DNA from: Rhizobium subbaraonis
GTDB taxonomy: Bacteria > Pseudomonadota > Alphaproteobacteria > Rhizobiales > Rhizobiaceae
Direction: 5' to 3'
Length of the DNA: 64,000 nucleotides
Assembly (NCBI RefSeq): GCF_900220975.1
Contig: NZ_OBQD01000005.1
Span: 77,447-141,446 of the forward strand
The position numbers and the translations under genes were made by a program. The notes under the pieces were generated by a model. The model was not told the origin of the DNA. It made no database searches and saw nothing but the letters and a program-made list of their open reading frames with translations. Positions 8,332 to 9,048 of the stretch are shown here, piece by piece (position 1 is the stretch's first letter; each line of letters begins with the position of its first letter).

Positions 8332-8468
8332 CCGTCATGCCGGACCTGATCCGGCATCCAGCCACGGTGCGTCAGCGCCGTGAATGGACCTTCACGGCTC
8401 GATATGAACCGAGTCTCCCGCGCGATGGACATCGCGCGCTGGATGCCGGATCAAGTCCGGCATGACGG
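8332..8468. repeat. Palindromic repeat copy A
   Basis: This 137-bp element has ends that are near-perfect inverted repeats of about 30 bp (start CCGTCATGCCGGACCTGATC, end GATCAAGTCCGGCATGACGG). Inside are two hairpins, CACGGTGCG/CGCCGTG-like and GCGCGATGGACATCGCGC. Copy B lies 440 bases to the right in the same orientation. Confidence 0.85.
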
Positions 8469-8551
8469 ATGCAGGGAGCATGACGGGGTGGAGGGGCCGG
8501 CAGGTCGGGGTGGAGGCGTCGGCAGAACGGTTCGTGGCTGGCGGGGCTGCG

Positions 8552-8842
8552 TCACAGGCTGTGCAAATAGTGGGCGATGTCCTCCCACTCGGGGTTGGCG
8601 GCCTCGATCAGGTCGAGCTTCCATTTCCGCGGCCAGTTCTTGATGGCTTTCTCGCGGGCGATGGCGTCGGTGACGAGGTCGTGTTCTTCGAACCAGACCA
8701 GCGTCTTGACGCCGTAGCGGGTGGTGAAGCCAGGAGTCAGGTTGTTCTGGTGTTCGTAGAGGCGGCGCGGCAGGTCGGTGGTCACGCCAGTGTAGAGTGT
8801 GCCGTTGCGTTGTGAGGCGAGGATGTAGACGTAGCCTTTCAT
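8552..8842 (-). CDS. GIY-YIG nuclease family protein
   Basis: This 96-residue single-domain protein has the GIY-YIG elements in order: GYVYIL (GIY strand), LYTGVTTD (YIG strand), the conserved Arg in RRLYEH, a middle W-F-E-E-H strand, and the catalytic Glu region in REKAIKNWPRKWKLDLIE. It ends with NPEWEDIA. It resembles the short YhbQ/UPF0213-type clade, whose DNA substrate is poorly known. The ATG at 8842 is used because conservation begins there; an upstream in-frame extension to 8932 only translates repeat sequence. No good ribosome-binding site is seen. The gene sits exactly between repeat copies A and B. Confidence 0.85.
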   Translation of the reverse strand: MKGYVYILASQRNGTLYTGVTTDLPRRLYEHQNNLTPGFTTRYGVKTLVWFEEHDLVTDAIAREKAIKNWPRKWKLDLIEAANPEWEDIAHYLHSL

Positions 8843-8906
8843 GGAGGGATGATGCGGGCAGCATTGCATGAAAGCAAGTCTGAGTTGTGCGGAGTAGCTC
8901 ATCGTT

Positions 8907-9048
8907 CCGTCATGTCGGACTTGATCCGGCATCCAGCCACGGCGCGTCTGCGCCGTGAATGAAAGCTGTCTTCAGATGGCAGAGATGTTTGATTCTCGTG
9001 CGCGATGGACATCGCGCGCTGGATGCCGGATCAAGTCCGGCATGACGG
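8907..9048. repeat. Palindromic repeat copy B
   Basis: This 142-bp element matches copy A across both inverted ends (start CCGTCATGTCGGACTTGATC) and both inner hairpins (CACGGCGC GTCT GCGCCGTG; GCGCGATGGACATCGCGC). The middle ~40 bases diverge. Its right end runs directly into the GA microsatellite. Confidence 0.85.

Follow-up and report, generated by a model that had tools for sequence, protein, structure and literature searches.

The CGTC REPs were defined by Di Nocera in 2013 (PMC3733652). In the available part of that paper they consist of a CGTC (or TGTC/CCTC) tag, a stem of 8-9 bp starting with AT, a loop of 4-5 nt and a CCA tail; they occur mostly as HH dimers, with the tags outside, in many copies, and the superfamily includes dRS3 and RPE-4/6. 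The same text describes these REPs as being without associated transposase genes ('apparently lack a dedicated transposase'), and its intragenic set omitted REPs inside hypothetical proteins of less than 120 aa (PMC3733652). GTAG REPs and REPINs belong to the RAYT/REPtron system, whose Y1 enzyme is related to IS200/IS605. Among the matches listed from the open-licence PMC literature, a corpus excluding subscription papers and preprints, none ties GIY-YIG nucleases to REPs, and term searches of the available text of a 2006 GIY-YIG phylogenomics paper (PMC1564403) and of the 2025 RepRanger paper (PMC12306157) returned no such link.

We analysed a 64,000-nt stretch of Rhizobium subbaraonis DNA (the window), in which two copies of a ~140-bp palindromic repeat with inverted ends and inner hairpins, A and B, had been described. 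Both copies are confirmed where they had been placed (Table 1). The repeat itself is real but its identity had to be corrected: each copy is a doublet of the known CGTC REP superfamily, made of two inverted 27-nt REPs, tags outward, around a spacer with two further hairpins. The REP reads CCGTC-ATGCCGGA-CTTGA-TCCGGCAT-CCA, with all four arms exact or one mismatch away, and it has the tag, the AT-starting 8-9-bp stem, the 4-5-nt loop and the CCA tail of the superfamily. Tags lie outside in both doublets, as in HH dimers, and the repeat is dispersed, with 27 matches at up to three mismatches in the 6.58-Mb genome of the window versus none for the reversed control. Aligned in direct orientation, the outer parts of A and B agree at 90% of positions over 68 and 61 nt, at distances of 580 and 575 nt; within each doublet the 32-nt inverted arms are 97% complementary. 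Folded as single-stranded DNA, A reaches -57.4 kcal/mol (z -10.0) and B -61.9 kcal/mol (z -12.4); none of 200 shuffles was equally stable in either case. The window holds four REP motifs, every one of them at this nuclease locus, and Rfam gave no match between positions 7500 and 9500.

Table 1. Coordinates of the nuclease locus and its neighbours in the window.
Feature	Position	Strand	Remarks
Truncated PDC-M34B / HEPN_Swt1 gene	7904..8323	-	terminates at doublet A
REP doublet A	8332..8468	.	downstream of the GIY-YIG gene; repeat alignment, DNA fold
REP arm of A	8334..8360	+	1 mismatch vs REP
Inner hairpin of A, left	8363..8382	.	sequence reading and DNA fold
Inner hairpin of A, right	8419..8438	.	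alignment and DNA fold
REP arm of A	8440..8466	-	exact REP match
GIY-YIG nuclease gene	8552..8842	-	96 aa, single domain; PF01541, E 1.2e-16; start common to homologues
REP doublet B	8907..9048	.	upstream of the GIY-YIG gene; alignment, DNA fold; tags outside (HH)
REP arm of B	8909..8935	+	1 mismatch vs GTCATGCCGGACTTGATCCGGCATCCA
Inner hairpin of B, left	8938..8957	.	sequence reading and DNA fold
Inner hairpin of B, right	9000..9018	.	alignment and DNA fold
REP arm of B	9020..9046	-	exact REP match
uvrB 3' end	9165..9274	-	neighbour at the site; single copy in the window

Between the doublets we found, as anticipated, a single short GIY-YIG gene on the minus strand. The proposed extension of its frame into B fared less well: the open reading frame listed as 8552-8932 does begin within an arm of B, but because homologues share the ATG at 8842, the extension is probably an in-frame reading of the REP that is not translated. 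The protein has the PF01541 domain with the conserved Tyr, Arg and Glu of the GIY-YIG superfamily. Counting the alignment rows that have a residue at the position, Y6 is conserved in 121/122, Y17 in 121/123, R27 in 123/124 and E64 in 124/124; these four, H31 and N83 are each retained in at least 121 of 122-124 rows. We take the Tyr, Arg and Glu to be the catalytic residues. The closest solved sequences are UPF0213 proteins and UvrC N-terminal domains (1zg2, 1ywl and 1yd6), and searches of NCBIfam, PHROGs and PADLOC gave zero matches for the nuclease. Across eight close homologues, Ka/Ks was 0.04-0.17 in 20 of 28 pairs, those with a computable Ks, several of which were saturated. By this measure the gene is under purifying selection and is maintained as a protein.

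A broken gene had been suspected to the left of A, and it is real. The truncated frame corresponds to the C-terminal portion of a PDC-M34B / HEPN_Swt1 protein (PADLOC PDC-M34B, E 6.4e-16); the match ceases just outside doublet A and the 5' part of this candidate defence gene is absent there. On the other side, 27 GA dinucleotides (9048-9101) abut doublet B towards uvrB. Elsewhere in the window, imperfect short repeats of the GGACTGGGCGG / GGACTGAGCGG kind lie at ~7000-7200, and a 458-aa open reading frame with glycine-aspartate repeats (2667-4043, minus strand) presumably resembles an RTX-type calcium-binding repeat protein.

The eight closest homologues of the nuclease (82-100% identity) all have a REP on both sides, matching at 21 or more of 30 positions, and they occupy five genomic places: four lie beside uvrB (genomes G000, G001, G003 and G005) and the other four at four separate places. 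Across the set of 41 genomes, the 27-nt REP is present in 12 and a nuclease homologue in 22. At the uvrB site, the gene and window-type REPs are both missing from G004, G006 and G009, and G009 holds one REP of another type. The ~95-110-bp uvrB 3' end is repeated at least once beside REP doublets in G001, G005 and G003 (loci L040, L041 and L042), beyond the cassette, but not in the window. G001 has the gene with a doublet on each side and a uvrB end beyond each doublet; G003 and G005 carry tandem repeats of a unit made of uvrB end, spacer and doublet. We considered a target-site duplication at uvrB as a footprint of transposition and do not claim one, because tandem duplication in G003 and G005 accounts for the repeats equally well.

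Comparison of a second site, between open reading frames that we read as outer-membrane-protein-like and GST-like, revealed several states of the same locus. G004 carries the REP-gene-REP arrangement there. G005 has two REPs at matching places around gene remnants (the start and a weak end piece), and G000 has two REPs at matching places with a short gene start alone between them (24 nt, 87.5%). G003 has a doublet without the gene, G002 only a hairpin and G006 a pair of another type; no REP was found at this site in G009 or G020. Since orthologous sites are occupied, empty or marked by REPs around remnants, these comparisons support a gene that comes and goes and REPs that can persist after its loss. 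At silent sites, the divergence between nuclease genes was ~1.0 for G000 and G006 and 2.5, a saturated value, for G000 and G004, versus 0.26 in a uvrB fragment; for the syntenic pair G000-G001 it was 0.39 versus 0.19 in the uvrB fragment. Given this divergence, the copies at different sites are separate lineages, laterally gained or old paralogues, with no fresh jumps among them.

We surveyed the linkage of REPs and nuclease in species genomes with six nuclease sequences as queries. At least 583 relatives were found, and the best 80 loci, picked by protein alone, were kept. A strict REP detector (tag GTC or CTC, stem of 7-10 bp starting with A and at most one mismatch, loop of 4-6 nt, then CC) located 305 REPs at these best 80 of at least 583 loci, 144 of them within 200 bp of the gene. 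Density at the same best 80 loci fell from 4.6 per kb within 200 bp to 1.1 at 200-400 bp and 0.10 beyond 1.6 kb, a ~45-fold difference between the nearest and the farthest class. A REP lay within 500 bp of the gene in 62 of the best 80 of at least 583 loci and on both sides in 43. The original prediction had named, as the outcome that would speak against it, no enrichment of repeats beside GIY-YIG genes together with clade genes that mostly lack flanking repeats; what we found is the opposite.

Several controls bear on this proximity. Detectors with scrambled tags returned 20, 9 and 10 sites in total at the best 80 of at least 583 loci, none of them closer to the gene than 200 bp; altering the tail left nine sites, three within 200 bp. 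Where 500 bp were available on both sides (76 loci, from the best 80 of at least 583), REPs flanked the gene on both sides in 41 and on at least one side in 59. The corresponding counts for control open reading frames, taken mechanically at 80 aa or longer and more than 1.5 kb from the nuclease gene, were 8 and 59 of 535; for those of up to 130 aa they were 3 and 15 of 105. The difference in two-sided flanking, 41/76 (from the best 80 of at least 583) versus 8/535, gives a Fisher p of ~1e-34 with relatedness ignored. In the relatives, 0 of 40 further GIY-YIG genes (35 UvrC-sized, 5 others) were flanked on both sides, and one had a doubtful one-sided site. Chance or clutter as the cause of the proximity was rejected on the basis of the control open reading frames, the other GIY-YIG genes and the control detectors.

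The association reaches far beyond the clade and genus of the window. In an even phylum sample the gene was present in 110 of 398 genomes. Taking the best match per genome, a REP lay on either side in 45/85 and on both sides in 29/85, where the 85 are the 110 minus G000, G005, G025 and 22 with weaker matches, and some species may recur from the 80-locus set. On viral contigs the counts were 15/24 and 14/24. By taxon, a REP within 500 bp was found at 35/50 alphaproteobacterial, 8/8 betaproteobacterial and 3/3 gammaproteobacterial loci, in single loci of Elusimicrobiota, Ignavibacteriota, Nitrospirota, Armatimonadota and others, in 1/2 of Myxococcota and in 0/1 of Bdellovibrionota; many of these loci come from metagenome bins that may be misnamed. 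A plasmid collection yielded 34 matches, of which five loci were inspected. The Azospirillum lipoferum copy in this collection has a doublet on each side and sits between sufB and sufC; the copies of S. meliloti pSymB and Rhizobium tumorigenes are flanked by REPs on a single side. On a Planktothrix agardhii plasmid (L313, 2300-3000) the homologue has a type IIL restriction gene on one side and drmA on the other; here the strict detector found no REP, yet TGTCATTCTGAG-type repeats surround the gene. In Neisseria gonorrhoeae the homologue lies between CGTC-1 repeats, a type equated with dRS3 in the available part of PMC3733652. Orientation varies: among the 43 two-sided loci (of the best 80 of at least 583), the nearest REP pair has its tails toward the gene in 24 and is ++ in 8, -+ in 8 and -- in 3. 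A REP whose tail points to the gene lies close to it, at a median gap of 34 bp upstream and 31.5 bp downstream. The clade of the window has the opposite arrangement to tails toward the gene. Overall, the coupling of this nuclease clade with REPs is well supported.

The type of REP follows the nuclease. Stems vary by nuclease subclade, with ATGCCGGA in the window and ATTCCTGTG, ATCCTCGGG, ATCCCAGGG, ACCCCATGG, ATTCCCGC and others elsewhere. We counted four REP types in 49 genomes (50 of the best 80 of at least 583 loci), and for 35 of the 50 loci a type could be assigned to the REPs beside the gene as well as to those elsewhere in the genome. In 31 of these 35 (one, L137, being a 12-12 tie) the gene-side type was the commonest of the four elsewhere, against a permutation mean of 9.0 and a maximum of 21 in 20,000; it occurred at all elsewhere in 34/35. 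A paralogue search of 20 genomes, mostly picked for more than one REP type, yielded 28 loci that were read, with several weak or fragmentary matches omitted, and one to six gene matches per genome versus tens of REPs. Some paralogues are frameshifted or partial and some have one-sided REPs. Eight genomes hold REP-flanked nuclease genes at two or more separate loci. The REP types clearly differ in seven of them, with three types each in G043 and G079 and two each in G081, G047, G067, G059 and G075; G071 gives a mixed picture. On a nuclease tree of 124 sequences, 94 of them labelled and many forks open, the inner-stem labels need 36 changes, where the least possible is 22 and the shuffled mean 66.6; 0 of 200 shuffles came as low. 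The labels CCCGC and CCGGC are scattered on this tree. One REP type per nuclease lineage is thereby shown, also between paralogues within one genome.

These results make the GIY-YIG nuclease clade a strong candidate for the missing partner of CGTC REPs, most likely in a partnership that resembles RAYT/REPIN but is based on an unrelated nuclease. The reading we favour, and consider probable, is that nuclease and CGTC REPs form a two-part element in which the doublet-bracketed gene is autonomous and the dispersed doublets are non-autonomous copies of it, a relation like that of REPINs to RAYT. We infer that the nuclease mobilises the REPs, and envisage the following route. The nuclease would recognize tagged hairpins of its own REP type and, when these are single-stranded or extruded, nick or cut next to them; host gap repair or recombination would then copy the doublet, in some cases taking along the gene and a piece of the flank. 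Because no covalent intermediate forms when GIY-YIG enzymes hydrolyse DNA, the window nuclease probably cannot itself join strands; in contrast to HUH or DDE transposition, its spread would depend on repair. Many nuclease genes are surrounded by direct repeats of the doublet including its spacer (judged on unmasked spacers), and both these and the uvrB-end/doublet tandems of G003 and G005 are compatible with repair-driven copying but are no proof of it.

The cis linkage across phyla, the type agreement, the gain and loss at orthologous sites and the purifying selection all speak for a two-part element. Weighing against it are the homologues in which the strict detector found no REP (18 of the best 80 of at least 583 loci, 40/85 in the phylum sample), together with 7/28 paralogue loci without one, and the low number of gene copies set against tens of REPs per genome. 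G002 keeps 19 REPs and no nuclease was found in it, although its contig stops at the uvrB site. The old, separate lineages at different sites of the genus, with no fresh jump, and the scatter of CCCGC and CCGGC types on the tree also count on this side.

The main rivals are homing into REPs and hairpin processing. A free-standing homing endonuclease would cut an unoccupied REP doublet and be copied in by repair, the REPs having spread by other means. The gene's position between direct doublet copies at many loci suits such an enzyme, as do the tandem gene-REP arrays of G043 (three copies), G053 (two) and G059 (two) and the gene-less doublet of G003 where G004 has the gene. However, efficient homing would fill many doublets, and the 20 genomes searched hold one to six gene matches each; an additional cause would also be needed to explain why REP types elsewhere in the genome follow the nuclease. 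We consider homing unlikely. We think it less likely still that a host housekeeping enzyme trims or resolves REP hairpins, its gene adjoining REPs only through joint retention of the two. Action on branched DNA is described for GIY-YIG enzymes such as SLX1 in the available part of PMC9071465, and DNA folding indicates that long REP doublets could form stable hairpins, but an enzyme acting in trans need not have its substrate on both sides at five places. The patchy presence of the gene (110/398 genomes) and its decay to remnants while the REPs stay are likewise poorly matched to a housekeeping role.

Least probable of all, and close to negligible, is that REPs simply accumulate between genes or act as terminators and adjoin this gene by chance. 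REPs do occur on at least one side of 59/535 control open reading frames, but two-sided flanking (41/76, from the best 80 of at least 583) far exceeds the 8/535 and, at up to 130 aa, 3/105 of those controls and the 0/40 of other GIY-YIG genes, and chance placement accounts neither for the type agreement with the rest of the genome nor for the differing types at paralogues.

Our judgement is evenly divided on a broader proposal: GIY-YIG/CGTC-REP pairs may be a widespread class of minimal bacterial mobile elements without a transposase, in which a 96-aa nuclease cuts at the tagged hairpin that belongs to it, copying is left to host repair, and the CGTC doublets of many genomes (alphaproteobacterial REPs, dRS3 and others) are the non-autonomous progeny. 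With a candidate partner found beside CGTC REPs in several phyla, the origin of these REPs becomes testable. If the proposal is true, the RAYT/REPIN relation arose a second time, in an unrelated enzyme superfamily, possibly via repair-driven spread, and a role is suggested for many small proteins whose sole annotation is 'GIY-YIG nuclease family protein' or 'excinuclease ABC subunit C'.

Compared with known systems, the nuclease has its closest solved sequences among the UPF0213 and UvrC N-terminal GIY-YIG domains, but the 35 UvrC-size and 5 other GIY-YIG genes of the relatives differ in lacking two-sided REPs. With GIY-YIG homing endonucleases it shares the catalytic domain and a possible cut-and-repair spread; it differs in having no visible intron or intein host, in sitting between repeats and in a length of 96 aa that leaves no room for a second DNA-binding domain. 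The window REP resembles the CGTC superfamily in tag, stem, loop, CCA tail, HH dimers and high copy number, whereas that superfamily has no transposase gene according to the available part of PMC3733652 and here a nuclease gene is associated. A RAYT acting as the mobiliser was rejected for this genome, which has no Y1 (PF01797) match; G003, from the same genus, has a partial one, and 7 of 41 relatives have matches, 6 of them above the cut-off. As a parallel, the likeness to RAYT that had been proposed for this locus fits. As in the RAYT/REPtron system, a dedicated gene lies within doublets of its own REP type, built of inverted REPs with a terminal tag, and that type is dispersed through the same genome, where gene-less doublets also occur; each repeat type goes with one gene lineage, and the gene can decay and leave its repeats behind. 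The two systems differ in enzyme and tag: an HUH/Y1 transposase with GTAG there, a PF01541 GIY-YIG nuclease with CGTC here.
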